From Erodium maritimum (lineage: Eukaryota > Streptophyta > Magnoliopsida > Geraniales > Geraniaceae), in the NCBI GenBank assembly GCA_963921825.1, contig OY997594.1:42836557-42900556 (forward strand): 64,000 nt of DNA, written 5' to 3'. Below are positions 945 through 30,397 of this stretch, piece by piece (position 1 is the first letter of the stretch; each line of letters begins with the position of its first letter). Position numbers and translations under genes: made by a program. Under the pieces are notes generated by a model. That model had not been told where the DNA came from and did no database searches. It saw only the letters and a list, made by a program, of their open reading frames with translations.

Positions 945-1054
945 GGTATGACCCTCGGAGTCAATTTTAGGTTTAATTAAGTGCCTGACAAATTTTTTTA
1001 AATTTTCCTATTTTTCGTAGGTTTGACTGGCGTTGACCGAGAGTGGTTATTACA
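945..1054 (-). mobile_element. Inverted 110-bp fragment of the LTR's 5' start
   Basis: Read on the minus strand from 1054, this begins TGTAATAACCACTC and ends GGGTCATACC. That matches the first 110 bp of the LTR at 60465-60574 with scattered differences. It sits immediately after the LTR 3' end at 944, in opposite orientation. The outer end at 1054 is a proper LTR terminus and abuts LINE coding sequence. Confidence 0.8.
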
Positions 1055-3003
1055 ACGATTGTTCTCAAACTAGATTTTGAGAAGGCCTTTGACAAGGCCA
1101 ATTGGGATTACATTGAGGAAGTGATGGTTGCTATGAATTGTGGTCCTAAATGGTGTTCTTGGATGGCCTCATGTGTTAGAGCATCTATAGTTGTTCTTGT
1201 AAACGGCTCGCCTAGTCGTGATTTTCCCATACTCAATGGGATTAGGCAAGGCTTCCCCCTCCGCCCTTTCATTTTCTTGATCGCTGCAGAAGGTTTACAT
1301 AAGGTTCTTGAGGAGGGCATCAGGCTGGGGGAGTTTTCTGGGGTTCGGATTGGCTCTACATGTCCCATTATTTCCCACCTTCAGTTTGCAGACGATACTC
1401 TGCTTTTTGTGCGAGGTTCTGTGGATAATCTTCTGAGGCTCAAGAGTACCCTTCTTACTTTTCAGTTTAGCTCGGGTCTCAAAATTAATTTTGAGAAGTC
1501 TACTTCCATTATCTTGAGTGATAGGACCCTGAATTCGGACTCTGTTGCTTCTTCTTTGGGATGTTTGGTTGGCTCGCTCCCTTTTAAATACCTTGGTTTT
1601 AATTTGGGAGCCAATCCAAGGCGTTTGTCAATCTGGGATCCCGTTGTCCGAAAGTTTAAGGACTCTCTTGCCTTGTGGAAGACTAAGGACCTTTCCATGC
1701 TAGGAAAGTTAGTTCTGATCAAGTCAACTCTTTCTGCGTTACCTATATTCTGTATGTCTTTGCTCAGGGCTCCTAAGGGAGTTATTAGGGAACTGGAAGC
1801 TTGGAGAAGACGTTTCCTATGGCATAATAGAGCTCGGTCCCGAATTTTCTGCAAGGTCTGTTGGTCCTTTGTAAGCCAAAGACTGAAGATGGCTTGGGTA
1901 TCCGAGGCTTGGATAGGGTGAATAACAGGTTACTGGCTAAATGGTTTTGGCGTTTCACTTCTGATAAGGACTCCCTTTGGAAGCAGGTTTTGTGTGCAAA
2001 GTTCGGTTGGGATCTAAATGAGTGGGATCTCACTGCGCTAGACAAACCAGGCTCCTTTTTTCTTTTTAGTCACATAATGGTTTTGTCTGAGGATCAGTCA
2101 TTCAGGAATCTCTTTGGGAATAAGAGTTTACACTGGGGGCTTGGGAGAGGTGATCGCATCCGTTTTTGGCAGGATGTGTGGGTCGGCCCTTTGGCACTTC
2201 ATTACCGTTTCCCTCGGCTATATCTTATTTGCACGGGTAAATGGTTACGTATTGGTGAGATGTGGATTGATGATACCTGGCATCTAGTTTATCGTCGCTC
2301 TTTTCTCTTCTCATATGAGTGGGAGGACTCAGCATTGCTTATGGATCTTCTGAGTACGGTTTCTGTTAGACCGGATTCCTCTGACTTGGTAGTCTGGTCG
2401 CAAAGGGAAGCAGGATTTTCCTCAACTTCTGCTTACCTACTGCTTTCAGACTCTGACCCATCTCCTGTTCCTTGGGATGGTATTCTTTGGGTCAAGAACC
2501 TTCCACCCAAGTACAACTCTTTGGTCTGGTTATTAGCTCATAATGTCGTCCCCACGAAGGTCTTTTTGGAAGAGAGGGGTTTACGGGTCTCGATTAATGA
2601 CATGTTTTGTAGCCTCTGTTCCCGGGTCTTTGAAGATTCCTCTCATCTATTCCTTCACTGTGATTATTCTTTGTTGCTTTGGTCAAAGGTTTTTACTTGG
2701 TAGTCTGTTGTCTGGATCATGCCGGGGGATTGTGTCACTTGCATGTTCGCTTGGAGAGGACTTGGTCGCAGAAGTTGGTGGCAGGTTTGGGTCAAGGTGG
2801 CCTTTGTAAACCTACTTATGTTTTTGGCATATTTGGTTGCAGAGGAACTCTGCTGTTTTTAGACAGCAGTTTGAGGCTATCGATGCAGCGTTCCACAAGT
2901 TACAACTTCATAGTTTCAGCATCTGCAAGATGGCTGGGGTTGATTCTCTTTGGTTGTTTCTTTCTTTTGGAGGTTATTTGGGGACTTCTCCCCTAGCTTT
3001 GTA
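1055..3003 (+). pseudogene. LINE ORF2 remnant: reverse transcriptase plus zf-RVT
   Basis: The first frame (1055 to about 1857) encodes the RT palm. It has LDFEKAFDKANWDYIEE near its start, NGIRQGFPLRPFIFLIAAEG in the middle and the catalytic FADD motif near 1390. A frameshift at about 1856-1875 moves to a second frame (to 2703) with CKPKTEDGLGIRGL and a zf-RVT-like region: LPPKYNSLVWLLAHN, then CSLC and HLFLHC. A further shift near 2700 leads to a C-terminal piece (IWLQRNSAVF and onward) that stops at about 3003. At least two frameshifts make it non-functional. The motifs identify the plant L1 clade; the exact family was not determined. Confidence 0.85.
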
Positions 3004-3057
3004 AAATCTTTATTTTCAATGCTCTGAATAAAACCATCATTTATCAAAACAAAAAAA
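1055..3057 (+). mobile_element. 5'-truncated L1-type LINE (ORF2 3' half, 3' UTR, polyA)
   Basis: The fragment starts inside the reverse transcriptase domain, where the gypsy-type LTR end abuts it. It ends in a short A-rich tail at 3042-3057, after an AATAAAA-like signal near 3027. Downstream sequence belongs to a minus-strand copia-type element, so the LINE probably inserted into that element and was then cut by the LTR insertion. Any 5' part lies beyond the LTR or is lost. Confidence 0.8.
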
Positions 3058-3090
3058 CATTTCATGCCTTACTTCAGGAAGTCCTTTTCT

Positions 3091-5580
3091 CTTCACTTCA
3101 AGGTGAAGGATATGGTCTTATCAAAAATGAAAATAACAAATCATTCAATAAACATCTTGTCCTTTAGGGACTCAAGATTGTCAAGGCGATTGATTTTATA
3201 AAGCGGTCAATAACTTAGCAAATGCAATGTTACACGATAAGACCATCTACTGGATGCGTCTATAAAGTATAGTCATACATATTCTCATGAATTCTCTACA
3301 TGCGTAATTGAAATTCCATACTAAAATTATCTTTGGATGGTTGGACCACAAAATATATCTTGTGAGAAGCAACACAAAATACTTCATAGGACATTTGAAC
3401 ATTCTAATCCTTTAAAGAAAGTCTGCATTAATTCTCAATGATCCTACACGCCATCGTCGATCCAAATGATCAAGACGAATACGTCGACGCATAAAACATT
3501 TTCATTATTGAACTACAGGTTCAATATAGCGTAGGCATTGACTGTTCTTGTATAACTCATGTATCTGAACATTTAGATTTCTAGTACTTCATTTTCACTT
3601 TAATCACTTCAGGTGATACGTGAGAAACGCGGTCTCATTTTTGGTCTCAACATGACATGCATCACAGTGTATGTCGTTAACACTAAGTAGATACTTTTGG
3701 ATCTACTTCCACATAGAGCATTATGAATGTTGAATTTTATTGTAATTTTCAACGACATGGTAGCTTTTCTGGAGCCCTTAATTACATTAATGGCACCCTA
3801 AATATTGTTAACCTTTACCTCAACCAAGGTTAAATATGAGAAATGCTTCTCATTCTTTATGATAGTATTGTGTCAATTATACACATATCATTTTTATTTT
3901 CGCACATGAATTGATCGCTTCAGGGATCCATATATAATATGAGAAATGAACCATGATTATATCGGCTACATCGTTATATAGAATCGTCTGAGACATTCAA
4001 TTCATTTAGATCTTCCGGATCTAGGTCATCAATCAGACTTTATCTCTATAACCCTTTTCTTTTGCCCTTGTTTGATGCTTGATGTAAAGTCATCTAAACA
4101 TTTGGTCATACAACATGTAATCGACCAATGATCTCTCCCATATCATATATAACATATAATTTCATCGCTTTCAGGAGTTCAATTCTATAAGCAACTTTCT
4201 TTGTGCATTTCGCATTTGTCCCACTTCAGGTGGGATTTCGAGATTGAAAGTTATAATGCATGTGAGAATGATCGTGGTCTCGATATGTCCCGGGTCTAGA
4301 ATTACCATCATGATTTATCCCATTCACTTCTGGGAATGGTATACTGTCAACATGGCGAATTTGATGGTTTTTCAGTAATAACTCATTATTTCGGTAATGA
4401 GTATACAAGAAATTAACTTCGAATATATAAGTTCGTATTTCCCGATATTAATATTGTTGGAGCATGTGGGATAAATGAACAAATATATTTCTTTATAGCC
4501 AAACTAATATGGCAATGTTTGGAAATAATATATCTTTAAAATGAACTATCAGATTTATATGAACTTCTGGTCATATAAATAACATAAATAACAAGATTGC
4601 ACCTTGAATCAGAATCTCAAGCTCTATGAAATTTAAGTCGGCATAAACTTCTGGTCATAAGACATTTAAAAATATTCCACATTTCAAATTCTTATTAAAA
4701 GAATGGTTCATTACATTTATTTCAGATTCTATGAAACTTTAAGTCCGTATGAACTTCTGGCCATACGACATTTAGAAATGGTGCACATATAAATTTCCAT
4801 TTGAACGACGGTGTAATGAACTTATCTCAAATCCCGTGAAATGTTAAGTCTGTATGAACTTCTGGTCCTACAACATTCAACAGCGGTGAAAATATTCGTT
4901 TCACTGGAATGAATAATTTAATGAAATTGTCTTTGACGGTTTTGGAACTTCGGGTCCAAAGTATCATGATATTTGTAATCTTCGGGTTACAAATATACAA
5001 CATTTGAATAATCAAAATTAGATATATAAAACCACACAATGAGCGAACTCATGGGGTAATATAGGTATAACCGCACAACGAGCGAACTCACGAGGTATAA
5101 AAAATTAAGTATATATATAACCACACAACGAGCGAACTTGTGGGGTAACCATAATAAATGTATAAATTAAATAAATATATATATATATATATAACCGCAC
5201 AACGCGTAAGCTCGTGGGCTAGACTAAATAAAATAAGTAATTGCATATAAAATTTTAGTCTTCAGGCCCTGGACACAAGTTACAGGCTTCAGGTCTGTGG
5301 TTTCATCTAGTGACCTTAATACAAGTTACAGGCTCCATACATGTGGTATGTATTTTACTTTTAAGGACATTTTACAGGCTTCGGGCCTATGATTTGTCAA
5401 TTGGTCATAAATACAAGTATCAAGCCTCAGGCTTGTGATTTATCGTTTGACCATAAAAATGCAACTATCAAGCTTCGGGCTTGTGATTTATTATTTGGCC
5501 GTAAATGCAAATATCAATTTTCGGGCATGTAATTTTTTTTATTTGGCCGTTAAATCACGTATCAAGCTTCGGCTTGCGAT
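3091..5580. repeat. Array of ~20 short hairpins with a common TTCNG-like loop
   Basis: Perfect or near-perfect dyads occur throughout. Left/right arm positions: 3091-3096/3103-3108, 3507-3513/3519-3525, 3603-3607/3613-3617, 3685-3692/3701-3708, 4007-4012/4018-4023, 4219-4224/4230-4235, 4320-4325/4334-4339, 4381-4388/4395-4402, 4555-4562/4571-4578, 4746-4751/4762-4767, 4941-4946/4955-4960, 4970-4978/4987-4995, 5469-5473/5479-5483 and 5563-5567/5572-5576. Stem sequences differ from hairpin to hairpin (ATTGAAC, AAGTAGAT, TTATATGA, TATTTGTAA and so on). The centre is nearly always TTCAG, TTCCG, TTCG(G) or ACTTCTGG. The sense strand of the element is minus, so RNA loops would read CNGAA. Confidence 0.8.
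5033..5215 (+). repeat. Degenerate tandem repeat with GAGCGAACTC core
   Basis: Four units of about 40-70 bp share CCGCACAACGAGCGAACTC or close variants, followed by a G-rich GTGGGG and an AT-rich spacer. The cores are themselves dyads around a CGAA centre (for example ATGAG at 5039 and CTCAT at 5048). A short TA run lies at 5178-5192. Confidence 0.7.
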
Positions 5581-5600
5581 TTTTCATTTGGAGCTTCTGG
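5255..5600 (+). repeat. Degenerate ~55-bp tandem repeat with CAAGCTTCGGGCTTG core
   Basis: About seven units carry a CAGGCTTCAGG or CAAGCTTCGGGCTTG dyad, followed by TGTGATTTAT and a TTGGCCATAAATGCAA-type spacer. The unit is part of the hairpin array but is more regularly spaced here. The last unit (near 5590) keeps only a weak stem. Confidence 0.7.
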
Positions 5601-5888
5601 TCTCAAATAATTCATTTTTGATACAAAACCGCTTCAAAAATGACGGTAGTAAAATAAATCAATATAAAAGAAACTTTTACTATATAACGATATTTTGATA
5701 CTACAACATTTTCTGATGTGAAAGATCCAAAACATTTTTGACGATCACATAGCATACTTAATAAAAAAAAGTCGATGCAACAAAAATATGAAATGAACAC
5801 AAATACACTTCATGAGTATCGTTAGTAAGTAATATAACGAAATAATTTAAGTTCATATAAAATTTTGATACCTGAGTAGACGAGCAAC

Positions 5889-5905
5889 TCGTGCTGATAA
5901 CGTGC
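5889..5905 (-). promoter_or_regulatory. Primer-binding site of the copia-type element
   Basis: Minus-strand GCACGTTATCAGCACGA lies immediately inside the LTR terminus. The TATCAGCACGAG core is one I associate with plant copia elements. The pairing tRNA was not verified. Confidence 0.55.
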
Positions 5906-6220
5906 TGTAAAACGAAATTAAAACAAGAAGGATGTCTTAAATAGCATAGAGTACTGCAATCAGTTGTGCATTTACTACTTTTGTGAGATCAAGAACTGCT
6001 TTTATAATAAGGAGATCAGAAACATAAAATGAAGACAAGCATATATGTAAAGAAAGAAACTCAAAATAGTTTGTTTTTTATAACCGCTCTGTTTCACTCT
6101 TACAAAACAAGTCTATATATAGACTAGTTCACCGCCATAATACATGTGATAATAAGGACACACATACATCATTAGTTTTGCCATGTGTCTATGATGGGGT
6201 CCACATGATTGTTTATAACA
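5906..6220 (-). mobile_element. 5' LTR (315 bp) of the copia-type element
   Basis: On the minus strand it starts TGTTATAAAC and ends CGTTTTACA, the usual TG...CA termini. It contains a TATA box (CTATATATAG, 6113-6122). It lies directly beside the tail of RRM retroposon copy A, so it probably inserted at or near that tail. No partner LTR is visible in the window, so no target duplication can be scored. Confidence 0.7.
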
Positions 6221-28568: not shown

Positions 28569-30397
28569 TTTTTTTATAAGCTAAGAATTTTATTAAGCTA
28601 GAGTTCTATAAGAATATAGAACACAGCAGGAAAGGATCCAAAAAAAAGGATCAATTCCTCAAACCAATACAACTCCGCAGAGTAAACAAGGATAAGAAAA
28701 ACTACTTCCTATCTGGATTTAAACAAATAAACCGGTTAGAAACCGGAACAGGGGGTAAAGAGCGAATTGGAGTCGGTGCCTCAAAATCCTCGATCCCGTC
28801 CTCGACGTCCTTCACAGGCAAAACGCGAAGATTTACTGCCTTTCGACCGACTTTCGAGCTGTAACTCCAATTTCCCGTGCTATCTTGTTTGGCAATGTCT
28901 ACCATGTAACATCCCAAATTAGCCCCACTATCAGCAGAGGTCCTAGCTCGTGTCTGGTAGACCACGATTGGTGGTTTAGGCAACTTCGATTGACTCTTCT
29001 TCGGGCGTCCTCGTTTCTTTGGCCCGACGCTAACTATCGGTTTCTCCAATGCCTCCTTCCATGGACTTCCCTGAAAGCCGAATTCCATACTCGATTCACC
29101 AACCCGAGGTAAAGAGTCAGTACGCGAGCCAATATCTTCCCCAATTCGGCTAAAAACAATAGCCAAACTTGGATCCATCCCAACCAGCGAGCGGGCCTTT
29201 TCAGATGGGCTGAGCACACCCTCCTTCTCAGCTGAGCCCAATCCCACAACTGGATCAGGCCCAACCGGACAAGAGCTCAACCCAGCCCCTCCAGGCCCAC
29301 CGCGTTCAACGAACTTGTTTGGTAACGTATCCGGAGGAAACTCGGACGCCGTGATCAACGGATTCAAACCCAATTCTTCGCTATCTGAAAAGGGAATCCC
29401 GATCTGGACTGGATTCTCATCCAACGAGGCAATCCCATGATTCACAGAGTCGGGATCGCGAGCGTCAATTGCAGGAAAACGCAGATCTTCGGGAACCTGA
29501 AAACACGGTGGAGGAGTGATCGTCGGCCGAGATGTGGGTGCCTGGGCGATGGCTTCCTCACGAGGAAGCTCCTGTCTCGCACTGGAAATCCGGAGAGCCA
29601 CTCCGGAGCGATCTTCTGGGTCAGGACGCAAAACAGAGCACATGCTCTGTTTTTGCTCTCCGGTTGACAGAGTCGCCTGAGGACGCAGGAAACGCCGAGA
29701 GAACGCTACGAAAAGGACATGGCCGTTCAGCTTGAATCCATTCAGTGTTTCGATCGCCTGTACAGCTGCGTAATTCGAGGAGAAACCGATGAAACCAAAA
29801 AAGTACCCTTTCTTATTTGCACGTTTCAGCAGAGTTGAGGATACAATGTCTCCAAAAGGAAGAAACATCGCCTTGAACGACTCTTTCGAGAACGGGAACG
29901 GAAAATTTCTCACATACACCTCCGTCGTACTTTCCACGAACTAAGCTCGAGGTCGTCGCCGGCGGACTGACTCCCCGTCCCTATCAGCACCATCGTCTTC
30001 TTGTTGGGCTACGGGCAGCACAAGAACAATGGACGCAGTCCCGGCCATCTGCTTCCCCTTCTCTACGACGGTCTGAGGACGAGATATGGGAAGTGTAGAT
30101 ACCCCTTTCGACTGCTTCCCCGTCTCTGTGGTAGGATCAACGGCGGTGCTTTGTTTATCGGCAGCCGGACGTTTGGTCGCAGTGTGAGTACGGGAGGGCT
30201 TAGACGAGCCTCCACGAGTTCCCTGATAACAAAGGGATCGATACTCACGATACAAAGCCACCATCTGCGAGCAAAAAGAGAAGAACGGAACAGGTTCTCC
30301 TTCGCCGGCGCTGGTAGAAGTCCGGCCGGCCAAGTGGTGGAAGCGTTTCCTTGGTGACATAGAAAATGTTTGTTAATACATATTACTTTTAACATTT
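28569..30397 (-). mobile_element. RRM retroposon copy D, bounded by a perfect 14-bp target duplication
   Basis: AAACATTTATTAGT occurs at 28555-28568 and again at 30398-30411, flanking a 1829-bp unit. Read on the minus strand, the unit has a 37-bp leader, one long ORF (30360-28702), a 3' UTR with AAGCTAGAGTTCTATAAGAA-type sequence (as the complement near 28595-28620), and a short A tail against the duplication. It has no RT, endonuclease or promoter-like tail. The duplication, A tail and 5' completeness show a LINE-mobilised, single-ORF retroposon. Confidence 0.85.
28702..30360 (-). pseudogene. RRM / AT-hook-like protein of retroposon copy D, one stop codon from open
   Basis: From ATG at 30360 the frame is open for 139 codons (MSPRKRFHHLAGRTST to RRRRPRA). 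It meets one TAG at 29943-29941 and continues in the same frame for another 412 codons. After the TAG comes an RRM: EVYVRNFPF (RNP2), KKGYFFGFIGF (RNP1) and ETLNGFKLNGHVLFVAFS. Then follow a long Pro/Ser linker, VFSRIGEDIGS, GSPWKEALEKP, the AT-hook-like KKRGRPKKSQ, VVYQTRARTSAD, YMVDIAKQDSTGNWSYSSK and VSNRFICLNPDRK at the C-terminus. The N-terminal extension is Lys/Arg- and Ser-rich. RRM-containing ORF1 proteins are known from some plant L1 LINEs; this one has no ORF2. The RRM implies RNA binding and RGRPKK possible DNA binding; both are inferred. Confidence 0.75.

Follow-up and report, generated by a model that had tools for sequence, protein, structure and literature searches.

LARDs are LTR elements whose long interior lacks intact genes; they are present in many copies, are assumed to be mobilised in trans and are described as having well-conserved RNA secondary structure (PMC7215508). 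Retrozymes, likewise non-autonomous plant retroelements, have conserved RNA structure (PMC4918200). In the copia-type element Ty1, Gag packages the RNA by structured cis signals, and the signals for packaging and dimerisation are described at the 5′ end, with kissing loops (PMC5454406). In RNA viruses such as MS2, packaging signals are dispersed, with many genome-wide stem-loops that have a common apical motif and a bulge rule; in MS2 the motif is (x)xYA at the apex, and the bulge is an A 5′ of it (PMC6281560).

Here we describe a locus in a 64,000-nucleotide stretch of the Erodium maritimum genome (the window) that resembles each of these systems in part, and which we class among LARD-like, non-autonomous derivatives of copia, its dispersed RNA signal being undescribed. 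Unlike in LARDs, its interior is partly a gag-pol relic with one repeated hairpin motif, which is common to coding relatives, and its LTRs, at ~0.3 kb, are much shorter than those of the original barley LARDs. The likeness to MS2-type signals is known from sequence alone, and the loop is another one, the bulge is on the 3′ side and the carrier is an LTR retrotransposon. Unlike in Ty1, the hairpins are dispersed and their loop is not self-complementary, and the role of Gag is putative. Sireviruses carry repeated motifs in plant copia non-coding regions, in the form of palindromic DNA motifs near and in the LTRs, whereas the hairpins described here are strand-polar and lie in UTR, gag and pol. 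Retrozymes carry hammerhead ribozymes, whereas an Rfam scan of the present element returned no ribozyme match and nothing above the gathering score, with SNORD46 as one sub-threshold match (18.7 bits vs 40). Among the titles and abstracts that searches of the open-access literature listed, we found no description of such a motif.

Results

A sequence-only reading of the window had reported hairpins with a common TTCNG loop between 3091 and 5580, and this array is real. In 3058-5905 there are 25 TTCNG sites, 10 of them capping perfect Watson-Crick stems of 5 bp or more. In 300 dinucleotide shuffles, an equal-composition comparison named beforehand as one that could refute the array, such hairpins numbered 0.40 on average and 3 at most. 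TTCNG ranked first by hairpins among 256 XYZNW patterns (10; next ATANA, 8), and each of nine control slices of equal length elsewhere in the window held 0 or 1 such hairpin. The longer CTTCNGG occurred 17 times (shuffled mean 0.32, maximum 2), 8 times with perfect stems of at least 5 bp (shuffled mean 0.013).

The 5′ LTR (5906-6220, minus strand) has a 93% identical partner ~15 kb to its left on the same strand (C7:42827199-42827512), and a PBS-like stretch is read just inside the LTR (5888-5902, minus strand; sense CGTTATCAGCACGAG). The LTR partner is on the same strand, and the PBS-like motif comes after the LTR when the minus strand is read, so the element has minus-strand orientation. The apex in the transcript is therefore CCNGAAG, not TTCNG. 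The array (3059-5905, minus strand) holds 17 CCNGAAG heptamers on its sense strand and 0 on the other. A PBS 20-mer taken from other copies had 328 exact matches in the genome, compared to 0 for the reversed control. The LTR, the PBS and collinear homology to the coding relatives described below identify the element as a Ty1-copia derivative. Sequence adjoining the left LTR partner matched the 3′ interior of another copy at 90% identity, and ~1.6 kb of the window element's interior was found in neither flank.

Abutting the array is a stretch that we label LINE-like from a reading of its sequence (1043-3058, plus strand), with frames at 1043-1921 and 1861-2703 and an A-rich end near 3058. Further repeats lie to its left, and positions 1-434 hold short tandem repeats common to the repeat-rich region to the left (L009), with some matches in reverse orientation. 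Elsewhere, a 411-aa open frame on the minus strand (28702-29937) contains an RRM domain (47 bits), and similar frames with no Pfam match occur at other places in the window.

All array features that follow are on the minus strand. Diverged tandem units of ~46-48 bp occupy 5250-5608, with hairpins at, for example, 5469-5483, 5563-5576 and 5376-5388 and covariation between units. Stems are otherwise unrelated in sequence, as the sequence-only reading held; the tandem units are the exception. The arms atatttgtaa/ttacaaatat enclose CCCGAAGA (4969-4996) and tttgga/tccaaa enclose CCCGAAGT (4941-4960). A hairpin with a CCAGAAGT loop (4745-4768) lies in a ~105 bp repeat, with further units near 4641-4660 and 4855-4874, and the same loop is enclosed by atttatatga/tcatataaat (4553-4580) and ccattc/gaatgg (4320-4339). 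Other hairpins are actcatta/taatgagt around CCGAAA (4381-4402), tcccac/gtggga around CTGAA (4219-4235), tagatc/gatcta around CGGAA (4007-4023) and gatc/gatc around CCTGAAGC (3913-3928). The element had been read as lacking gag-pol, and the window copy indeed has no intact frame that we could see, but 3061-3844 is collinear with copia pol (beta-barrel, GAG-pre-integrase and part of integrase), at ~67% identity to the coding loci L052, L053 and L054. Three sites in this stretch can be compared directly. At 3686-3707, the window copy reads agtagat/atctact around CCAAAAGT, most other copies have a CCAGAAGY loop, and coding L053 has aagtagat/atctactt around CCAGAACAA. The hairpin atcac/gtgat around CTGAA (3602-3618) is missing from coding L052 and L053 where they align to it. 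The stem tattgaac/gttcaata (3506-3526) has a mutated loop in the window copy (CTGTA), and coding relatives have a CCAGAAG loop there, over codons for MNQKFI.

A second hairpin class lies at about 5031-5215, where four tandem units carry sense GAG-TTCG-CTC (UUCG loop) with outer pairs that differ between the units. In another copy (L012, 4084-4194), three near-identical hairpins, gtagat/atctac around CCAGAAGC, are ~45 bp apart, a local multiplication of one hairpin that occurs in some subfamilies. We considered direct duplication as the sole source of the hairpins and rejected it: tandem units exist, but many hairpins are at collinear, pol-derived sites.

The motif obeys rules of polarity and register. 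In five segments, stems of at least 6 bp gave 31 CNGAA hairpins, counted with the pentamer at or beside the apex (in at least three it is partly inside the stem), and 0 TTCNG hairpins. No element segment counted had the complement CTTCNGG on its sense strand. Twelve non-coding segments contained 180 distinct heptamer contexts, 76 of which had perfect stems of at least 4 bp. Of these stems, 46 began flush with the heptamer, 29 after one unpaired 3′ nucleotide (12 T, 12 C, 4 A, 1 G) and none with a 5′ bulge, and the remaining stem had one unpaired nucleotide on each side; flank-shuffled contexts gave about one stem per register. Since contexts from related copies are not independent, these counts describe the family and not separate events. 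At the coding loci, 20 of 40 contexts had stems (7 flush, 9 with one and 4 with two unpaired 3′ nucleotides, 0 with a 5′ bulge).

When all 4096 XXNXXXX patterns were ranked, CCNGAAG came first both by count and by hairpins in the L052/L056 ORFs (10 hairpins, next 1), in L053 (8, next 1) and in the window array (9, next 2). CCNGAAG was missing from an unrelated copia stretch of the same genome (2349 nt of L047), and in the rest of the window (56.7 kb) the pattern ranked 1934th by count and formed no hairpin. The shuffles, this ranking and the control sequence rule out a chance origin. Many stem-loops with a common apical motif run along the element, as they do in dispersed packaging signals. 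The 100-nt folding energy was slightly below that of shuffles, with no strand preference (mean z -0.69 sense, -0.74 antisense).

The derivative forms a family. The array (3091-5620) found 1089 candidate places in the genome, and the 40 of these that were scored gave 87 matches; the LTR (5906-6220) found 8 places. Either the LTRs diverge faster than the interior or they were exchanged. Five of eight copies tested had LTR pairs of 95-98% identity within the fetched reach, and L020/L044 is an element of ~5.9 kb with TATAT on both sides; paired LTRs with a target site duplication mark a complete mobile unit, as in LARDs. The hairpins also run through the 3′ half of family copies, so that the array does not stop at the limits first drawn for it (3091-5580): other copies examined carry hairpins through the interior.

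No frame of at least 150 aa overlaps 3059-5905 in the window copy, and the longest sense frame before the 3′ LTR was 117 aa in the 3′ halves of four uninterrupted copies (L044, L045, L047, L048). As in LARDs, intact protein-coding genes are thus lacking from the window array and these 3′ halves; the insert-bearing L049 has frames of up to 254 aa. Many copies have a 92-aa pol remnant with an equally long open frame; of 1161 candidates 150 were scored, and in none of them did the frame exceed 122 aa. Given this ceiling and the 95-98% identity of the LTR pairs, the family appears to have multiplied while gene-less. Young gene-less copies and the common PBS suggest that it was probably mobilised in trans. 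Pfam gave no match above cut-off on the remnant frames tested, so the pol origin of the derivative rests on alignment to the coding loci.

Matches to the PBS 20-mer led to four such loci (L052, L053, L054 and L055). Frames of the first three contain PF14223, PF13976, PF22936, rve, PF25597 and RVT_2 (Pfam, run on these three), with zf-CCHC of L052 below the Pfam cut-off. These copia-type gag and pol domains place the coding relatives in the Ty1-copia superfamily. They have the same PBS as the derivative and a homologous 5′ UTR, and the window array aligns to their 5′ UTR, a piece of gag, and pol (the last over about 3844-3061). L056 is the continuation of L052 and has a 1005-aa frame. When 267 aa of L052/L056 pol were searched against the genome, there were 17841 candidates, of which 144 were scored; at least 20 of the 144 fall in stop-free frames longer than 1000 aa, and three sequences other than the query match all 267 aa exactly. 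Related pol proteins are present in many flowering plants. A search of IMG/VR for pol relatives gave one pattern match and no confirmed relative.

The presence of the motif inside gag and pol of coding relatives is a new observation here. The L052 and L056 ORFs contain 22 CCNGAAG heptamers in sense and 0 in antisense, whereas 1000 synonymous shuffles averaged 8.9 and never exceeded 14. They form 10 hairpins, counted for stems of 4 bp or more that start flush or leave one or two 3′ nucleotides unpaired; the shuffles gave 0.43 on average and 5 at most. The heptamers occupy all three reading frames, inside both gag and pol; in L056 pol, 10 of the 15 are in one frame, and the synonymous mean is 7.3. 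The stretch from integrase to reverse transcriptase (L056, about 1180-1410; L053, 1840-2180) reads as a PE-rich linker whose codons hold many heptamers. The excess was not seen in every coding segment: L052 gag had 3 heptamers vs 1.2 in synonymous shuffles, one L053 segment had 1 vs 0.8, and L054 had one heptamer over three segments. When CNGAA on 5-bp stems was counted instead, the only segments to stand out were L056 (p 0.006) and two of the three from L053 (p 0.03 and 0.006); L052 gag had 0 and the L052 pol piece 1 vs 0.7.

We compared aligned sites of the derivative and the coding loci; the same site can recur in several copies. In the 3′ half (six copies, 26 hairpin sites), the coding sequence had a hairpin at 6, a stemless heptamer at 3 and no heptamer at 17; in the 3844-3061 stretch (eleven copies, 19 sites), the numbers were 12, 1 and 6. 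Sites with no aligned coding letters were left out (7 and 27, respectively). In the reverse direction, at least one of the six copies kept 2 of 4 alignable coding hairpins of L056 and 2 of 5 of L053 in the 3′ half, and in the 3844-3061 stretch the derivative kept 1/2, 2/3 and 1/1. The hairpin over the MNQKFI codons, by reading, keeps CCNGAAG in 21 of 31 aligned non-coding rows, the window row being one without it, and has two different outer stems in two subfamilies.

At three aligned sites, for example, the motif occurs in the derivative alone: non-coding ATCACTTTTAATAAA vs coding ATCACCAGAAGTGATAAA, CTCGGCCTACAGCTCGAG vs CTCGGCCTGAAGATCGAG, and GTGAAACAGAAGTACA vs ATGTACCTGAAGTACAT. One loop at an aligned site changed from CCTACAG to CCTGAAG. 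Simulated neutral decay of 2180 nt to 67% identity left a mean of 1.3 heptamers and 0.6 hairpins, a rough guide under a simple substitution model. We infer that the derivative gained these hairpins, as opposed to descending from an unseen coding line that bore them; some derivative-specific hairpins fit in frame. Near 1620 in coding L054, at the site of the 3602-3618 hairpin and beside a frame break, there is an inverted repeat with another loop, ATCACCGGGGTGAT.

The stems had been expected to covary. This is clear between tandem units: across 47 distinct arm pairs, 213 of 282 cells were paired (shuffled mean 183, maximum 197), with 30 double changes (shuffled mean 11.3, maximum 20). Between orthologous copies it is weak. 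In three alignments, double-changed cells numbered 26, 11 and 3 (shuffled means 12.3, 7.6 and 3.4) and double-changed pairs 3 vs 3.9, 3 vs 3.6 and 3 vs 2.8, no excess over shuffles; of these nine pairs, three are subfamily-level flips. We therefore dropped orthologous covariation as the main proof. Among 7397 stem cells compared between copies, 598 were broken, 339 changed on one side and 49 changed on both. Most stem changes are thus uncompensated, an outcome that had been set in advance as evidence against the array, with the tandem units and the three subfamily-level pairs as compensated exceptions; dead insertions are expected to decay in this way.

Discussion

A single polarity, loop and bulge side, together with the retention of the motif in reading frames, point to a single-stranded sense nucleic acid recognised by one protein. 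Sense RNA and plus-strand cDNA are indistinguishable here because they have the same letters. The proposal that a conserved loop on changing stems is kept at the RNA level gains support from the polarity, the bulge side and the coding occurrence beyond synonymous shuffles. Dimerisation by loop-loop pairing, another early suggestion, is unlikely because CTTCNGG is absent from the sense strand of the counted segments; the loop is complementary neither to itself nor to another sense-strand loop, as kissing loops would be. Our data suggest that CCNGAAG hairpins are tags scattered along the RNA for recognition by a single RNA-binding protein, perhaps Gag of the element itself. Gag would be the simplest reader because many copies of it are present per particle, as in dispersed packaging signals (PMC6281560).

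The reading we favor, to which we give a probability of roughly 0.5, is that this Ty1-copia lineage carries a dispersed sense-strand signal, putatively read by Gag for packaging, that was multiplied in a trans-mobilised non-autonomous derivative. In CCNGAAG, the outer C and G could close a CNGAA pentaloop, beneath which the stem begins flush or after one (sometimes two) unpaired 3′ nucleotides. Coding members have the motif in the 5′ UTR and within gag and pol. In the order of changes that we propose, the derivative would have lost its genes and then accumulated the signal all along its RNA. Old sites would have been retained or improved, others would have arisen in dead pol sequence, and units would have been duplicated. 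Gag of the coding family, most likely, would bind many hairpins and so bring the RNA into virus-like particles. An RNA that needs cis signals alone may be selected for more hairpins, and if the packaging signal is additive, the derivative would fill with copies while the coding family would be limited by its codons.

The strongest competitor, though an unlikely one, is a host RNA-binding protein that reads the hairpins for nuclear export, stability or processing of unspliced RNA and not for packaging. The same evidence (sense polarity, dispersed UTR and coding sites, one loop) fits such a protein, a gene-less RNA also requires export and stability, and SR-type proteins have a preference for GAAG. 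As the hairpins are absent from the unrelated copia stretch (2349 nt of L047) and the 56.7 kb of other window sequence, the need for such a protein is not a general one. Less probable still is a mutational process in which reverse transcription switches templates, so that one arm is copied into the other, leaving perfect inverted repeats with no function. Derivative arms did become complements of the other arm, for example at 3602-3618 and at the GTACA site, the array contains tandem duplications, and the L054 hairpin at the 3602-3618 site has another loop. That process does not predict one loop, one bulge side, the heptamer excess over synonymous shuffles or the conversion of loops into CCNGAAG (CCTACAG to CCTGAAG), so that the template-switching by-product first suggested does not, alone, explain the array or its retention in coding frames.

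We consider it improbable that the hairpins act on host silencing, by blocking, feeding or diverting small-RNA pathways, or repress translation of the transcript. The 5-10 bp stems seen here are on the short side for dicing, and a single loop sequence would be unexpected; on the other side, plant hairpins can interact with silencing (PMC10760457). Least probable, at the level of a slim chance, is that codon use, or the repetitive PE-rich linker with tandem duplication, makes the motif and that it has no RNA function. The array is partly tandem repeats, 10 of 15 L056 pol heptamers share a single frame, and synonymous shuffles already give a mean of 7.3. Those shuffles hold protein and codon use fixed, yet they are exceeded, all three frames are occupied, the stem registers are non-random and motif sites lie in the dead pol sequence of the derivative.

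The dispersed Gag-read signal that we favor touches two questions, how plant LTR retrotransposons choose their RNA and how their gene-less relatives become numerous. Because the motif is defined (a CCNGAAG hairpin with a 3′ bulge rule), occurs in coding copies and is multiplied in the derivative, it is open to ordinary binding assays. Within its dead coding sequence, the family also preserves a natural history of one RNA motif emerging again and again. More tentatively, at somewhat under even odds, LTR retrotransposons could have a recognition code at the RNA level that is written genome-wide, in the UTR as well as in all frames of the coding sequence, as cooperative packaging signals putatively read by Gag; the gene-less derivative would have made dead gag-pol into a dense signal array and may compete for particles. 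If true, this would extend the idea of dispersed packaging signals from RNA viruses to retrotransposons.
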